39,391 nt of DNA from Halomicronema sp. CCY15110 (lineage in GTDB: Bacteria; Cyanobacteriota; Cyanobacteriia; Phormidesmidales; Phormidesmidaceae). A program made the translations under genes and the position numbers. Shown here piece after piece: positions 3,506 through 12,690 of this stretch; position 1 is the first letter of the stretch; each line of letters begins with the position of its first letter. The notes beneath the pieces are model-generated. The model was given only the letters and a program-made list of their open reading frames with translations, was not told the DNA's origin and did not search any database. The DNA lies in assembly GCF_016888165.1 (NCBI RefSeq), contig NZ_JACSWC010000167.1:1-39391 (forward strand), in the 5' to 3' direction.

Positions 3506-4651
3506 CTACCGTTCGGCTAGCTGCACAACGGCCAGTCGCGATGACATCAGCCGATCCATCCAGGTTGCCAAGAACGCCTGATTGGCAGCCTGTTCGGCGG
3601 GCACCTCGGTCGTCGCGGGGTGGGGTAACAGACCCTGGAGAGCGGCAGACGTGACGCAGAACATGGACTTTTGAAAGCTCTGGGTAATTTGCACCCGGAC
3701 ATCTTCATCCCCGCGCAGGCCCTGGCGATAGTAATCGGCCAGGTAATCGGGGAGAAAATGGCGCATATCTTGCATCAACAGGGTGGGGGGAATGCCCGCG
3801 CCCCCCACGGGCACCGGGTCGGCATAGAGCGCCCCATAGGCAAAGCGCGACTGATCCGGAGAAATCTGCTGCACCTGGGCGTTGTAAGACACCGTGCCCA
3901 GAAACGGGGTGCCGCGAAAAAAGACCGCTTCGACATAGGGAACGGCGGTATCCATCAGAAACGTTAGGCCCGCCGATGCGGGCAATAGGTCATGGCGATC
4001 GCCCCGGATCTCGACGCTGTAGGTGATCGGGAGGCTGGCGGCGGCAACCAGGCCGTCCTTGATGTGGGCCACTACTTCCGGGATCGACGTAATGCGCTGT
4101 TGGTCATACAAATCCGACAGGGTGAGAAACATTTCGCTCATCACCGTCCAAAACTGACCCAAGCCGCTGTAGTAGGCTGACTGGCGCACTTGTTCTGGCA
4201 AAAAGTCGGGAAACAGGCGGTGCAGCGTCTGCATCAACCAGTTGCCCTTGAGCTTGGCCTGAATCGCCCGATCGCAATTTTGCTGGAACTCGTCACTATC
4301 GAGATAGGCATCCAGACCGCCGCCGCCGTGCCAGAGCATGGTGCGCATGCAGTATTCGGCGTACTCATAGTTAATGCGATCGTGCCACCAGTGCTTCAAC
4401 AGTTTGTTGAGGGTAATGTCGCCATTGAAATATTTGAAGAAAGGAAACAGCAGCAAAAACTGATGATCCGCAATGTATTTCAGATTGACGGCATAGGCAT
4501 CTAACACCACGCCATAGCTTTTGAGGATGCCCACCACCTCTAGCACGTTGATCTCGGTGTCGGGCAACAGCGCCTCAGCCTTGAGCAGCCGCTCGATAAA
4601 GGGCTGGAGCGGATGGTCATTGACCAGATTGGGAGACAGCGTATTAGTCAT
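3506..4651 (-). CDS. cupB: CO2 hydration protein (CupB/ChpX type)
   Basis: A 381-residue member of the ChpX/ChpY (Cup) family, peripheral subunits of the specialised NDH-1 complexes on the thylakoid that hydrate CO2 to bicarbonate at the expense of electron flow. Hallmarks include LLPDTEINVLEVVGILKSYG near residue 30, KHWWHDRINYEYAEYCM near 85-105 and LWHGGGGLDAYL shortly after. The His of the WHGGGG segment and nearby Glu/Arg residues are the likely metal-site region by analogy with CupA structures. The ATG at 4651 overlaps the end of ndhD by eight bases, which indicates translational coupling. The order ndhF-ndhD-cup and the position beside ccm genes, recalled from Nostoc, favour the constitutive F4/D4/CupB set over the inducible F3/D3/CupA set, but this needs phylogeny. 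Confidence 0.9.
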   Translation of the reverse strand: MTNTLSPNLVNDHPLQPFIERLLKAEALLPDTEINVLEVVGILKSYGVVLDAYAVNLKYIADHQFLLLFPFFKYFNGDITLNKLLKHWWHDRINYEYAEYCMRTMLWHGGGGLDAYLDSDEFQQNCDRAIQAKLKGNWLMQTLHRLFPDFLPEQVRQSAYYSGLGQFWTVMSEMFLTLSDLYDQQRITSIPEVVAHIKDGLVAAASLPITYSVEIRGDRHDLLPASAGLTFLMDTAVPYVEAVFFRGTPFLGTVSYNAQVQQISPDQSRFAYGALYADPVPVGGAGIPPTLLMQDMRHFLPDYLADYYRQGLRGDEDVRVQITQSFQKSMFCVTSAALQGLLPHPATTEVPAEQAANQAFLATWMDRLMSSRLAVVQLAER

Positions 4652-6215
4652 CGGTAACATCGGGGGTAAACGGCAGCGGTGCAAAGCCCGCCATTGATGG
4701 TGGTGTCGTCGATGGCGGCTGGGCGATGGCGACACTGGGCGATCGCCAGGCCAGGGTGGTGACTTCGCTCCAGCGAGACAGCCAGTGCGGCTGCAATCCT
4801 AAGACGACGATGAGTAGCGCCAGGGCGATCGCGGGTAAGCGATCGCGCCAGGCGACCGGCGGCAACATCACATCCGGTTCGACTTTGTCGCTCGGCAACG
4901 CGATCGCTAACCGCCCAAAGAAAACCCGATTGACCAACAGCAAAAAATACACCGCCGTTAGGCCCGCGCCGACCATACACAACAGCGTCGGCACGGGAAA
5001 GGTAAGAAAGCTGCCCCGAAACACGATAAATTCCGAAATGAAGCCCACCATACCGGGGATGCCCGCACTGGCCATCACCCCCAAAATCATCAGACTCCCG
5101 ACCAGGGGCAGTCCCCGTTCGGGGTTGAGCAGTCCCCGCAGCACCGTCAGGTCGCGCGTTCCCGTGGTTTTGTAAACGATCCCGACAAGCAGGAACAGCA
5201 ACCCAGAAATCAGACCATGGCTGACCATTTGCAGCACCGTGCCCAAAATAGCCAGGGGAGTCGCCGCCGCTGCCGCCAGCAAGATATAGCCCATGTGACC
5301 GATGGAGCTGTAGGCCACCATTTTTTTCATGTCGGTTTGGGCGATCGCCGCCAGCGAGCCATAGAGCACGCTCACCACCGCCCACACCGCCAACCAAGGC
5401 GCAAAGAAGGCCCAAGCATCCGGCAGCATTTGCAGCCCAAAACGGACGATGCCGTAGGTGCCCAACTTCAGCAGTACGCCTGCCAAGAGCACCGACACTG
5501 GCGTCGACGCTTCGACGTGGGCATCGGGTAGCCAGGTATGAAACGGAAACAGCGGAATCTTAATGCCAAAGCCGATCAAAATTGCGATGAGGATCGTGCC
5601 CTGCTGCCAGAGGGTCATCGATTGGGCCAGGGTGGCATCGTAGTTGAATGAGCCCGTGCCCCCCAACCAGACAAACCCTAAAAAGCCGCCCAAAATCAAA
5701 ATTCCAGAGGTGGCGGTATAAATCAAAAATTTGGTGGCCGCATAGCCCCGCCTGGCCCCGCCCCAAATGGCAATGAGCAAATACAGCGGAATCAGCTCTA
5801 GCTCGTAGAAGATAAAAAACAGAATCAAGTTCTGAGCGAGAAACGCCCCCGCCACCGCCATATTGATCAGCAGCATCAAGCTGAAATAGAGTCGGGGACG
5901 CTGAATGGTGGCGGCACTGGCATAAACCGCGATCGCCCCCAGCAGACTATTAATCACCAATAGCGGCATGGATAGACCATCCACCCCCAATTGATAGGTC
6001 AGCCCCAGGGCATCGATCCACGGCAGAGATTCTACAAACTGCAAGTCGGGCTGCTGAATATCAAACCGGGTGGCGACCACAATCGCGCCCACCAAAGACA
6101 GCACCTGCACCAGCAGGGCGACTTGCCCCACCTCCTTAGCGGGTCGGTGGTGGGGCCATAGACTGACGATGACCGTCCCCACGAGGGGAATCAAAATTAA
6201 CGCACTCAGCATCAT
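4644..6215 (-). CDS. ndhD4: NDH-1 subunit NdhD4-type
   Basis: A 523-residue proton-pumping subunit of type I NAD(P)H dehydrogenase, homologous to complex I NuoM. It is strongly hydrophobic throughout with about 14 membrane helices. Family motifs are visible: FFIFYELELIPLYLLIAIWGG with the conserved Glu of the pump channel, PFHTWLPDAHVEASTPVSVLLAG with the conserved Lys region upstream, and KMVAYSSIGHMG. In the CO2-uptake complexes the D3 or D4 form replaces the respiratory D1/D2 form and anchors the F-Cup module. It starts nine bases after ndhF and overlaps cup by eight bases, so the three genes form one operon. Two consecutive ATG codons (6215, 6212) are possible starts. Assignment to D4 rather than D3 is inferred from context. 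Confidence 0.9.
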   Translation of the reverse strand: MMLSALILIPLVGTVIVSLWPHHRPAKEVGQVALLVQVLSLVGAIVVATRFDIQQPDLQFVESLPWIDALGLTYQLGVDGLSMPLLVINSLLGAIAVYASAATIQRPRLYFSLMLLINMAVAGAFLAQNLILFFIFYELELIPLYLLIAIWGGARRGYAATKFLIYTATSGILILGGFLGFVWLGGTGSFNYDATLAQSMTLWQQGTILIAILIGFGIKIPLFPFHTWLPDAHVEASTPVSVLLAGVLLKLGTYGIVRFGLQMLPDAWAFFAPWLAVWAVVSVLYGSLAAIAQTDMKKMVAYSSIGHMGYILLAAAAATPLAILGTVLQMVSHGLISGLLFLLVGIVYKTTGTRDLTVLRGLLNPERGLPLVGSLMILGVMASAGIPGMVGFISEFIVFRGSFLTFPVPTLLCMVGAGLTAVYFLLLVNRVFFGRLAIALPSDKVEPDVMLPPVAWRDRLPAIALALLIVVLGLQPHWLSRWSEVTTLAWRSPSVAIAQPPSTTPPSMAGFAPLPFTPDVTDD

Positions 6216-6224
6216 GCTCTGGCC

Positions 6225-8060
6225 CTACCACATTCTCCAAGTCGTCAAGAGCACTAACAGGCCCACCCCAACCACGATCGTCAGGATGTAACCCTGCGAT
6301 CGCCCCGATACGCTGTACTTCAGGCTTTCGCCCCCCATCAGCGACGCCAACCCAATACTGTTGACCACCCCATCGACGATGTAGCGATCGAACCAACTGC
6401 TGGCCAAGGACAATCGCTCTACCAACCCCACAACGGTGAGGCGATAAAGCTTTTCGGTGTAAAAGTCGTAGGCCAGTAAATCTTGCAGAATCCGCAGGGG
6501 TTTTTGGGTTGACCGAGCCAATGCTTGACTCAGCGGCATCGCCGCCCCGATCGCGACCCCGGCTACTCCGGAAGCAATCAGCAACACGAAGGCAGTCACA
6601 TTGATATATCGCCAGGGCGGCAGCAGATCCATTTGGTGCATTCCCAAGGGCACCAAGAGCGTCACGCCCACCAAAGTCACCATGGGCACCGCCATGGGCC
6701 ACGCCACCTCCGGTGCCCGCCGCGACTTGGGTTGAGCCGCCCCTAAAAACACTAGGCGAAACACGCGGGTTAGGTTTAACGCGGTTAGCAGATTCACCAG
6801 CAAAAAGACAGCGACCAGGGCCGGTTGCGATTGCCAGAAAAAGTCAATGCCCAGGGTGTAGCCCCAAAAGCAGCCCAGGGGAAAAATGCCCACCATCCCC
6901 AGGCCAGCGGTGATGTAAGCCACCGTCGTCGCGGGCATCTTGCGACTCAGACCGCCTAACTCTGTGAGGTCTTGGCAGTTGGTGGTCAAAATGATCGCCC
7001 CCACGCTCATGAAGAGCAACGCTTTGGCGATCGCATGGGTCAGCAAAATCGTCAGGGCCACCCCCGGCCACTCAGTACCGACGGCGATGAAGACCAAACC
7101 TAAATAGGCACTCGTGGAATAGGAAAACGTCCGCTTGATATCGACTTGCGCCAGCGCCACCAACGACGCCCCCAGCGCCGTTATGGTGCCAATGCCGATC
7201 AGCACATCCAACGCGATCGGAGACAGCACTACAATGGGCTGCAAGCGGATTAAGACATAGGCCCCACAGGTCACCACCACCGAATTGCGCAAAATCGACG
7301 CTGGGTTGGGGCCTTCCATCGCCTCATCGAGCCAGAGATGCAGGGGAAATTGCGCACACTTCCCCGTCGGGCCAGCAATGAGCGCCACCCCCAACAGCGT
7401 TGCGACCAAAGGGGCCAAATCTGCCACCTTGACCCATTCATACAGGTCGTTGAAGCGCAAGCTCCCCGCAAATGCCGACAGCGCAATCATCCCCATCAGC
7501 AGTAATACGTCACCGATGCGCTTAGTCAAAAAGGCATCGCGGGCTGCCGTCACCACCAACGGCTGGGCATACCAAAAGCCCACCAGCAGATAGGTCGATA
7601 GCGTCAGCATCTCCAACAAGGAGTACGACAGGAACAACGAACTGCTCAGGATGACCCCGCTCATCGCCGCTTCAAAGAAGCCCATCAGCCCAAAGAATCG
7701 CCCCAAGGCCCAATCTTTTTCGAGATAGCCCAGGGCAAAAAACTGCGCGAGGAAACTCAAGCCGGTAATCAACAGCACAATACCCAGGCTCAATCGAGAT
7801 AGCTCGAAGGACACATGCAGGGTCAAATCGGTAATTTGAAACCAATCCCAGTTCAACTCCTGCGACCCATACTCGCGCACCCGCCGAAACGCGCCCACGC
7901 CATGGACAAAGGCCAGCAGCGTCATCACCAGATTGAGATACGCCGCTGGGCGCTGCCCCGTGCGACGAACCAGCCCCAGCGACCAGGGCAGAGTGGCGAT
8001 CGCCCCTACCAAGCCATAGGCCGGTATCAGCCAGCCGCTTTGCATCCAAAAATCTGCCAT
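6225..8060 (-). CDS. ndhF4: NDH-1 subunit NdhF4-type
   Basis: A 611-residue antiporter-like membrane subunit of NDH-1, homologous to NuoL. Nearly the whole protein is hydrophobic helices. Recognisable family segments include ALGYLEKDWALGRFFGLMGF near residue 110, FWYAQPLVVTAARDAFLTKRIGDVLLL near 165-195, and PTGKCAQFPLHLWLDEAMEGPNP near 230-250, the last being the F3/F4-type form of the NuoL LPDAM segment. It is the first gene of the ndhF-ndhD-cup operon, transcribed away from ccmK2. The ATG at 8060 gives the N-terminus MADFWMQSGWLIP, as expected for the family. CO2 uptake rather than respiration is inferred from its Cup partner. Confidence 0.92.
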   Translation of the reverse strand: MADFWMQSGWLIPAYGLVGAIATLPWSLGLVRRTGQRPAAYLNLVMTLLAFVHGVGAFRRVREYGSQELNWDWFQITDLTLHVSFELSRLSLGIVLLITGLSFLAQFFALGYLEKDWALGRFFGLMGFFEAAMSGVILSSSLFLSYSLLEMLTLSTYLLVGFWYAQPLVVTAARDAFLTKRIGDVLLLMGMIALSAFAGSLRFNDLYEWVKVADLAPLVATLLGVALIAGPTGKCAQFPLHLWLDEAMEGPNPASILRNSVVVTCGAYVLIRLQPIVVLSPIALDVLIGIGTITALGASLVALAQVDIKRTFSYSTSAYLGLVFIAVGTEWPGVALTILLTHAIAKALLFMSVGAIILTTNCQDLTELGGLSRKMPATTVAYITAGLGMVGIFPLGCFWGYTLGIDFFWQSQPALVAVFLLVNLLTALNLTRVFRLVFLGAAQPKSRRAPEVAWPMAVPMVTLVGVTLLVPLGMHQMDLLPPWRYINVTAFVLLIASGVAGVAIGAAMPLSQALARSTQKPLRILQDLLAYDFYTEKLYRLTVVGLVERLSLASSWFDRYIVDGVVNSIGLASLMGGESLKYSVSGRSQGYILTIVVGVGLLVLLTTWRMW

Positions 8061-10060: not shown

Positions 10061-12100
10061 ATGGTGACCCGAAGCGCAGTAGCTCTGCAGACGCCTGGGT
10101 CTCTTGGATTCGGGCGACTAGCGGCTGACACGACAGCAATCGTGCATGATTTTGCCGAGGTCGTTGGCGATGTCCGGATTGCCGATGATGTCTTGGTGGC
10201 ACCAGGTGCGGCCATTCGGGCCGATGCCAATGTGGTGTTCAGCCTGGGGGCGGGCACGGCGATTCAAGATGGAGTTCTGATCCAGGCTTTGCGCGAGGGC
10301 AGAGTCCTGGGCGATGATGATAAGTCTTATGCAGTCTGGATTGGAGCTAACGTCTGTATTGCGCACAAAGCCATTATTCAGGGGCCAGCTTACATCGGCG
10401 ATCAGGCTTTTGTCGGTTTCCGCTCGACCATCTTTAATGCTCGCTTAGGCGCTGGTTGCATCGTGATGATGCACGCCCTAGTGCAGGATGTCGAGATTCC
10501 CCCTGGCAAGGTAGTCCCCTCGGGCGCGGTGATCACGCAGCAAGACCAGGCCGATCGCTTGGCCGATGCCCAACCTCCAGATCTCGCCTTTGTGGCCGAA
10601 CTCACCACCATTAATCAAGCGCTGCGGACAGGCTATGGGCAGGCCGTCATGATGTCATCGCAGCCGTCTGATGCCGCCGATCAGCACGATCGCGCACCGC
10701 TAACCTCTATCGCTCAAGACAACGGAACTAAGATCATGCAACCTCAAAGACTGACGACCGACATCGTGCAACAGGTGCGGCAACTACTCAACCAGGGTTA
10801 CAAAATTGGCACCGAACATGCGGATGCTCGTCGTTACCGGAGCAACGTGTGGCAAACTTGTAGCCCCATTCAGTCCACTCGTGAAGGCGATGTCTTGACC
10901 GCTTTAGAAGCCTGTTTAGAAGAGCACACCGGGGAGTATGTGCGGCTCTTTGGAATTGACCCTGCAGTCAAACAGCGCATTGCCAGCACCACGATTCAGC
11001 GGCCTGATGGCAAACCCGTAGCCGTACAGACTCGCGCCGTCCCCAATGCCGGTCACACCAGCCCGACAAGTAGCTACAGCAGCGGCGGCAACACCCCCAC
11101 CAGTGCCACTGGCGGTGACCTCAGCCACCACGTTCGAAACTGGCTGAGCCAGGGCTACCGCATCGGTTTAGAACATGCTGATGTGCGCCGGTATCGGAGC
11201 AACGTGTGGCAAACTTGCTCACCCGTACAGGCCAGCAGCGAGCACGAAGCCATGGCGGCAGTGCAGGCTTGCGTCAGCGAGCACCGAGGCGAATATGTCC
11301 GCATGTTTGGCATTGACCCCGTTGCCAAGCGACGCGTCTCGCCCGTCACCATTCAGCGCCCCGACGGGCCAGTGTCTCTGGGCAATCCTGGCGGCTCGAC
11401 CACCACCCCTGCTTCTAGCTATGCAGGGAACGGTGCAGCTACTGCGGCCCCCAGCGGTCAACTCTCTAGCGAAGCCGTACAGCAAGTCCGCGGATTGTTA
11501 AGCCAGGGGCTCAAAATTGGCACCGAACATGCTGATGCGCGCCGATTTCGCAGCAATGTGTGGCAAACCTGCTCGCCGATTGAGGCCACTCGCGAAAGTG
11601 AAGTGCTGGCCGCGCTGAATGCCTGCGTTCAAGAACATGCTGGTGAATATGTGCGCGTCTTTGGGATCGACCCGACTGCGAAGAAACGCTTATCACCCAC
11701 GATCATTAATCGTCCTGGCCAAGCGGGGAACAACGGTCACTCCGCCAGCGATGGCAGCAATGGTGCGTCTACATCTGGCGGCTCGACCTACGCGGCGGCA
11801 TCCCCCCCAGCCAATGGCAGTCGCCATCATGGTCACCAGCCTTTGAGCGAGGATGTCGTGCAGCAGGTGCGGCAGCTCGTGGGGCAGGGCTATCGCATCA
11901 GTCTGGAACATGCGGATGTCCGGCGCTACCGAAGTGGCGCTTGGCAAACGGGCGGTATGATTGAGGGCCAGAATCCGTCTGCCGTGCTATCTGCCCTGGA
12001 GTCTGGTTTGGCGTCTCACGCTGGGGAATATGTTCGATTGATTGGCATCGATCCCCACGCTAAACGTCGGGTACTTGAGACCACAATTCAACGACCCTAG
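10061..12100 (+). CDS. ccmM: Carboxysome assembly protein CcmM with four SSUL modules
   Basis: A 679-residue scaffold that links Rubisco, CcmN and the shell. Residues about 20-205 form a gamma-carbonic-anhydrase left-handed beta-helix. Of the three zinc histidines (75, 102, 107 in Thermosynechococcus CcmM), only His102 remains; positions 75 and 107 are Gln, so this domain is predicted inactive. The stretch after the helix also lacks the Cys pair known from the active homologue. Four Rubisco small-subunit-like modules follow at about 229-316, 353-437, 467-553 and 595-679, joined by Ser/Gly/Thr/Pro linkers. The first three carry two cysteines each (in WQTC and the following helix); the fourth has none. 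An in-frame ATG at 10736 (Met226), just before module 1, could start a short form. GGGAGG at 10045-10050 supports the full-length start. Confidence 0.96.
10736..12100 (+). other. Possible internal translation product of ccmM (short form, SSUL modules only)
   Basis: In other beta-cyanobacteria ccmM makes both the full-length protein and a short form (M35 type) from an internal start just ahead of the first SSUL module. Here the in-frame ATG at 10736 (Met226) is ideally placed and is preceded by GGAA about ten bases upstream. The product would have 454 residues and all four modules. Its use is inferred from the family. Confidence 0.5.
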
Positions 12101-12111
12101 TCACTTTTTGC

Positions 12112-12690
12112 ATGGTGCAGGCACATGAACCACGAGCCATCGGCGATTATTACATCGGGGCCAATGTCGAAATTGCGCCTGATGTGGCGATCGCGGCTGG
12201 AGTTGTTTTAGAAGCGGCTCCCGGCGCTCAACTGGTCATTGCCTCAGGGGTTTGTATTGGGATGGGCGTGATTGTGCAAGCTGCCGGGGGCAAGTTGGTA
12301 CTTGGTGCTGGGGTCAACTTGGGCAGCGGCGTTTTGATTGTTGGTTGGGGGTTAGTCGGCCCACACGCCTGTATCGGTGCTGAGAGTTCCTTGTTCAATC
12401 CGCAGATCGCTGCTGGAGGGGTGTTAACAGCGCGATCGCTCCACGGCATTCCCGGTACTGACACAGACATTTCAGCCGCCAGTAATGGTCAGGCTACGTC
12501 ATCTGCCCATCCGAGTAACGAGCCAGAAGTCGCTGAGGCAGCGAACAATGGGGCAGCAGAGCCTCAGTCTGATGAAGAGGGGCTGGCTCCGAGCCGCATC
12601 GTGTATGGCCGTGAGCAATTAACGCAACTCATAAAGACCCTCTTTCCCCATCGAGACGCGCTCAACGGTAATGGTCAAAGTCCATCTTGA
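12112..12690 (+). CDS. ccmN: Carboxysome adaptor protein CcmN
   Basis: A 192-residue protein linking the CcmM core to the CcmK shell. Residues about 10-115 are hexapeptide repeats of a left-handed beta-helix (IGANVEIAPDVAIAAGVVL and following), which bind the CcmM helix domain. A flexible Ala/Ser/Glu/Asn-rich linker covers about 118-160. The end, VYGREQLTQLIKTLFPHRD (about 164-182), is an amphipathic helix of the known encapsulation-peptide type that attaches to CcmK. It begins 11 bases after ccmM. No strong Shine-Dalgarno sequence is seen, so translation may be coupled to ccmM. Length and domain order are normal for the family. Confidence 0.94.
   Translation: MVQAHEPRAIGDYYIGANVEIAPDVAIAAGVVLEAAPGAQLVIASGVCIGMGVIVQAAGGKLVLGAGVNLGSGVLIVGWGLVGPHACIGAESSLFNPQIAAGGVLTARSLHGIPGTDTDISAASNGQATSSAHPSNEPEVAEAANNGAAEPQSDEEGLAPSRIVYGREQLTQLIKTLFPHRDALNGNGQSPS

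Follow-up and report, generated by a model that had tools for sequence, protein, structure and literature searches.

Two of three zinc ligands are missing from the gamma-carbonic anhydrase-like domain of CcmM in Halomicronema sp. CCY15110, one of many such losses among CcaA-bearing relatives

Introduction

CcmM has been described as inactive where the beta-carbonic anhydrase CcaA is present, in Synechocystis PCC 6803, Synechococcus elongatus PCC 7942 and others (PMC9865033; PMC9120777; PMC5472144), and the published marks of this inactivity are Trp, Asn and a Cys pair, not the zinc ligands (PMC9865033). The ccm operon of Halomicronema sp. CCY15110 raises the question of what remains of a gamma-carbonic anhydrase (gamma-CA) site when the ligands themselves disappear, and of which enzyme would then serve the carboxysome. 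The locus lies in the window analysed here, the whole stretch of 39,391 nucleotides of contig NZ_JACSWC010000167.1, and a preliminary description of it had proposed that the CcmM domain is purely structural, with carbonic anhydrase activity left to a separate enzyme such as CcaA encoded outside the window.

The ccmM gene and its active site

The open reading frame was assigned to CcmM by its match to NCBIfam NF053794 (726.8 bits, cut-off 550), by four PF00101 matches and by its layout, a gamma-CA-like beta-helix at the N-terminus with SSUL repeats behind it, within an operon ordered ccmK-ccmK-ccmL-ccmM-ccmN-ccmO (Table 1). By analogy with 7942, the internal in-frame ATG at 10736 is a possible start of an SSUL-only isoform. 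Upstream of ccmK and head to head with it (8690, +), the window carries chpX (CupB), ndhD and ndhF of a CO2-uptake NDH-1 at 3506..8060 (-); ndhF and the start of ndhD are found at the corresponding place in the relative G002 (locus L289).

Table 1. Positions in the window of ccmM, its domains and active-site codons, and ccmN
Feature	Position	Strand	Evidence or remark
ccmM, 679 aa	10061..12100	+	gamma-CA-like domain and four RbcS-like (SSUL) modules
Gamma-CA-like domain, left-handed beta-helix, residues 1-195	10061..10645	+	gapless alignment to 3kwc; AF2
Ala56 replacing Glu56	10226..10228	+	codon GCC; GAG in G002, G004, G012
Gln75 replacing zinc ligand His75	10283..10285	+	codon CAG; His in G001, G005
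His102, sole zinc ligand kept	10364..10366	+	codon CAC
Gln107 replacing zinc ligand His107	10379..10381	+	codon CAG; common to G001, G005
Region of activating Cys194/Cys200, here Gln194 and Ser200	10640..10660	+	alignment; Cys pair kept in G002, G004, G012
Possible SSUL-only short isoform (M35 type), in-frame ATG, codon 226	10736..12100	+	ATG directly before SSUL 1
SSUL 1, Cys pair 267/285	10751..11005	+	PF00101
SSUL 2, Cys pair 386/404	11111..11362	+	PF00101
SSUL 3, Cys pair 504/522	11462..11716	+	PF00101
SSUL 4, without Cys	11843..12097	+	PF00101
ccmN, adaptor partner of CcmM	12112..12690	+	NF053793 100.6 bits (cut-off 100)

Residues are numbered from the start Met of the window CcmM and compared with the active Thermosynechococcus CcmM (PDB 3kwc), to which residues 3-195 align with zero gaps. 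Both the alignment and the codons bear out the initial reading that Gln75, His102 and Gln107 stand where 3kwc has its three zinc histidines. Replacements extend to Glu56 and the activating Cys pair (A56, Q194, S200), in keeping with the absence of cysteines noted earlier for this region. Within the first 206 residues the only histidines are His29, His102 and His138, so that no alternative His triad is possible; the case that would have spoken against the preliminary description, other histidines at the metal site, was looked for in the alignment and the sequence and none was found near the site. Its statement that CcmM of S. elongatus 7942 keeps all three histidines is correct in PDB 7o4z.

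The fold, as had been claimed, is otherwise intact. An AlphaFold2 model of the domain, predicted from an input with 31 natural relatives, has a mean pLDDT of 84.8 and is closest among PDB structures to 3kwc (rmsd 1.3 A over 172 columns, ~59% identity), followed by the 7942 domain and then by the CcmM-CcmN complex. Comparison of the domain with that of the sister genome G001 gives dN 0.05 against dS 0.78 (dN/dS about 0.07), which indicates that it is maintained under strong purifying selection. The proposal of a purely structural domain is consistent with every test run, and, judged by the residues present, the domain almost certainly forms a structural trimer without catalytic function. It should be kept in mind that one His ligand remains and that Gln can in principle coordinate zinc.

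Zinc-ligand loss among the relatives

The alignment of CcmM loci covered 65 genomes of the window's family together with other families of the class, and each locus was given a triad code for residues 75/102/107 (HHH being intact). Two members of the window's genus, a Halomicronema MAG (G002) and Oscillatoria sp. CS-180 (G004), retain the full site with HHH, the Cys pair and Glu56. The triad is HHQ in G001 and G005 (Leptolyngbya sp. SIOISBB) and QHQ in the window genome, G000. These last three species are nested together in the CcmM tree (99% SH-aLRT) and have in common H107Q and the loss of Glu56 and of the Cys pair, while Gln75 is private to G000. The assembly is in 443 contigs, which might suggest a sequencing or annotation error or an overlooked second, intact CcmM; however, the genome is 99.9% complete with one CcmM-type match only, and Gln107 occurs in the sister genomes with differing codons (CAG, CAA) and is thus no sequencing accident. 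For Gln107, the sister genomes and the dN/dS value rule out both an error and a pseudogene, and an explanation of this kind for the locus as a whole is extremely improbable.

Most CcmM of the window's family have lost ligands. The triads are YHQ, YYQ, NHQ or HHQ in group g12 and EHH or EHR in g13; G007 reads QCY, G008 QPQ, G011 and G389 QHH, G013 HHQ, and G015 shows a separate QHQ. Ligand loss is also found in five other families, with HHQ in f24 g77, QHH in f22 G193, HHN in f15 g54, HHY in f15 G259, GHY in f23 g103 and HHY in f4 G050. The parsimony minimum is 8 changes on the CcmM trees and 6 on the CcaA tree, which is made mostly of the window's family; the trees are rough because the eroded sequences form long branches. 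Two genomes stand apart: G009, a 98% complete MAG of the family in which neither CcmM nor any beta-CA was detected, and G387 (locus L286), whose 3.0 Mb genome lacks CcaA and has ccmM in broken form (a 155 aa frame reading HYH), as if carboxysomes were being lost.

This spread of residues bears on two other readings of the site. It could be argued that metal is still bound and some activity kept through Gln75, His102, Gln107 and water, given that Gln is a possible weak zinc ligand and recurs at position 107 in several lineages. Against this, the site has also lost Glu56 and the activating Cys pair, and the Tyr, Glu, Asn, Pro, Cys or Arg that other family members have at the ligands look like decay rather than a fixed new site; residual catalysis is therefore very unlikely. 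Alternatively, the vacated pocket may have been recruited to a new role, such as trimer packing or the binding of another ligand or partner, with Gln107 selected and not neutral. The presence of Gln107 in several separate groups (g1, G015, g12, G008, G013 and f24 g77) and the purifying selection on the domain would fit such a role, but substitutions at residue 75 vary widely among genera, and a single base change turns His into Gln, so that the recurrence of Gln107 is not decisive. Recruitment is thus unlikely, if less so than residual catalysis.

Order of decay

Decay of the site appears to follow an order. Among the HHH copies of CcaA-bearing genomes, 24 lack the Cys pair only and 18 lack the Cys pair and Glu56, and both features are gone in 50 of the 52 ligand losers (one of the 52 being a partial sequence). 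The usual order in the relatives would therefore be loss of the Cys pair first, then of Glu56 and then of the zinc ligands. In the window lineage the changes at the Cys pair, Glu56 and His107 map to one branch, and the change of His75 would have come later. Consensus in the ligand losers is gone at R53, D55, E56, P59, F60, D70, H75, L77, H107 and G108, with further loss at positions 20, 44 and 51; these positions lie mostly within the catalytic cluster, and 40 of 71 highly conserved positions are retained at 90% or more.

CcaA and the other carbonic anhydrases of the genome

The window genome encodes exactly one beta-CA, on contig C69, outside the window. It is CcaA-like, with 5swc as its best PDB match (E 4e-92); its zinc ligands Cys39, His98 and Cys101 and its Asp41/Arg43 dyad are intact, and it ends in a C-terminal RIYRG peptide. 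The LSREQAERIYRG end is common to the family and is predicted to act as a carboxysome-targeting extension. The expectation of a separate carbonic anhydrase thus holds, since an intact CcaA is present on another contig. Searches of the same genome returned no alpha-CA and a single CcmM-type match, with no second or satellite CcmM. A gamma-CA-like protein on contig C361 was considered as a second CcmM and rejected: it is short, and although three His are kept it has no SSULs and is a member of the general hexapeptide family.

In the curated genome set, ligand loss is found in 50 of 118 genomes with CcaA versus 1 of 56 without it, and any active-site decay in 93 of 118 versus 3 of 56, counts in which the genomes are not phylogenetically independent and the CcaA-lacking ones were drawn partly from high-scoring matches. 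A Fisher test of CcaA against ligand loss, which includes incomplete MAGs and treats genomes as independent, gives p 5e-7; a phylogenetically paired sign test has only five well supported pairs, too few to separate the association from shared ancestry. In the window's family a ligand loser always has CcaA, with the exception of the MAGs G324, G389 and G392, and the beta-CA residues of the losers are intact where covered. Four MAGs of the family have no detectable beta-CA, probably due to incompleteness. G050 (f4, locus L334) lacks CcaA and any beta-CA and carries H107Y (TAT) with Glu56, the Cys pair and all else intact, being either an exception or an assembly error. Across families, ligand loss is found in nearly every case beside a separate, intact CcaA able to supply the activity.

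Satellite CcmM copies

In several relatives there is, besides the main protein, another CcmM of about 316 aa composed of a gamma-CA domain and one SSUL. Satellite CcmM with a single SSUL has been described in Leptolyngbya and Acaryochloris (Long 2011, cited in PMC5853843); its gamma-CA domain is of the same family as that of the window CcmM, and it occurs in relatives of the window genome. The copies form one clade with 100% support and keep HHH and the Cys pair in 18 of 18. In the window genome and in G001 no satellite copy was found. An intact satellite accompanies an eroded main CcmM in G011, G311, G319, G365, G392 and G306, and this conservation beside an eroded main copy adds to what is known of such satellites (PMC5853843). 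Some copies look damaged, with a frameshift in G005 (L329) and upstream stops in G306 (L330). The clade (L329, L330, L174-L180, L242, L247) extends across several families on short branches and was possibly spread by horizontal transfer.

A probably structural CcmM domain beside CcaA

Very probably, as a whole, these observations reflect a structural CcmM domain, CcaA as the carboxysome carbonic anhydrase and a stepwise decay of the gamma-CA site. The domain would trimerise CcmM, bind CcmN and CcaA and let the SSUL modules condense Rubisco, and CO2 inside the carboxysome would be made by CcaA. It is proposed that selection on the gamma-CA site was relaxed once CcaA supplied the activity, after which the site would have decayed in steps. 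A broader statement has about an even chance of being right, namely that in the window's family the main CcmM is a scaffold only, after repeated and ordered erasure, and that carbonic anhydrase duty rests with CcaA and, in some species, with a short CcmM that has a complete zinc site.

Beyond the preliminary description, the loss turns out to be one of many, the decay to be ordered and some relatives to have a satellite gamma-CA that is still intact. What had been a rule of thumb, inactive CcmM where CcaA occurs, can thereby be followed within one family as an evolutionary series that runs from full to erased sites with the fold kept. Such a series offers natural mutants that bear on which steps abolish activity and on whether a gamma-CA fold serves assembly alone, and it shows in which genomes CcmM should not be annotated with a gamma-CA. 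Our literature search, which did not reach key subscription-only work, found nothing on the loss of CcmM zinc ligands or naming His75, His102 or His107 of CcmM; inactivity of CcmM beside CcaA is already known, and recurrent zinc-ligand loss appears unreported in the searchable literature.

Comparison with known systems

The window CcmM is ordinary in direction and uncommon in extent. In 7942 the CcmM domain has lost carbonic anhydrase function and CcaA is essential (PMC8580825; PMC13249358). CcmM of 7942 and of Synechocystis PCC 6803 resembles that of the window in fold, operon, structural role and the company of an intact CcaA; the 7942 protein also lacks the Cys pair but keeps three zinc His, whereas the window CcmM keeps one. 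At the other end, CcmM of Thermosynechococcus (3kwc) and Nostoc 7120 has been described as an active gamma-CA in strains without CcaA (PMC9120777). The 3kwc fold is about 59% identical to the window domain and, unlike it, has the complete set of HHH, Glu56 and Cys pair. A parallel outside cyanobacteria is found in the plant gammaCAL proteins, in which two of the three zinc His are missing and which nevertheless serve in mitochondrial complex I (PMC7567890). Like the window CcmM, these are subunits of a gamma-CA trimer kept as structural parts after loss of two zinc His, although they act in another organelle and within a hetero-trimer that retains one active site.
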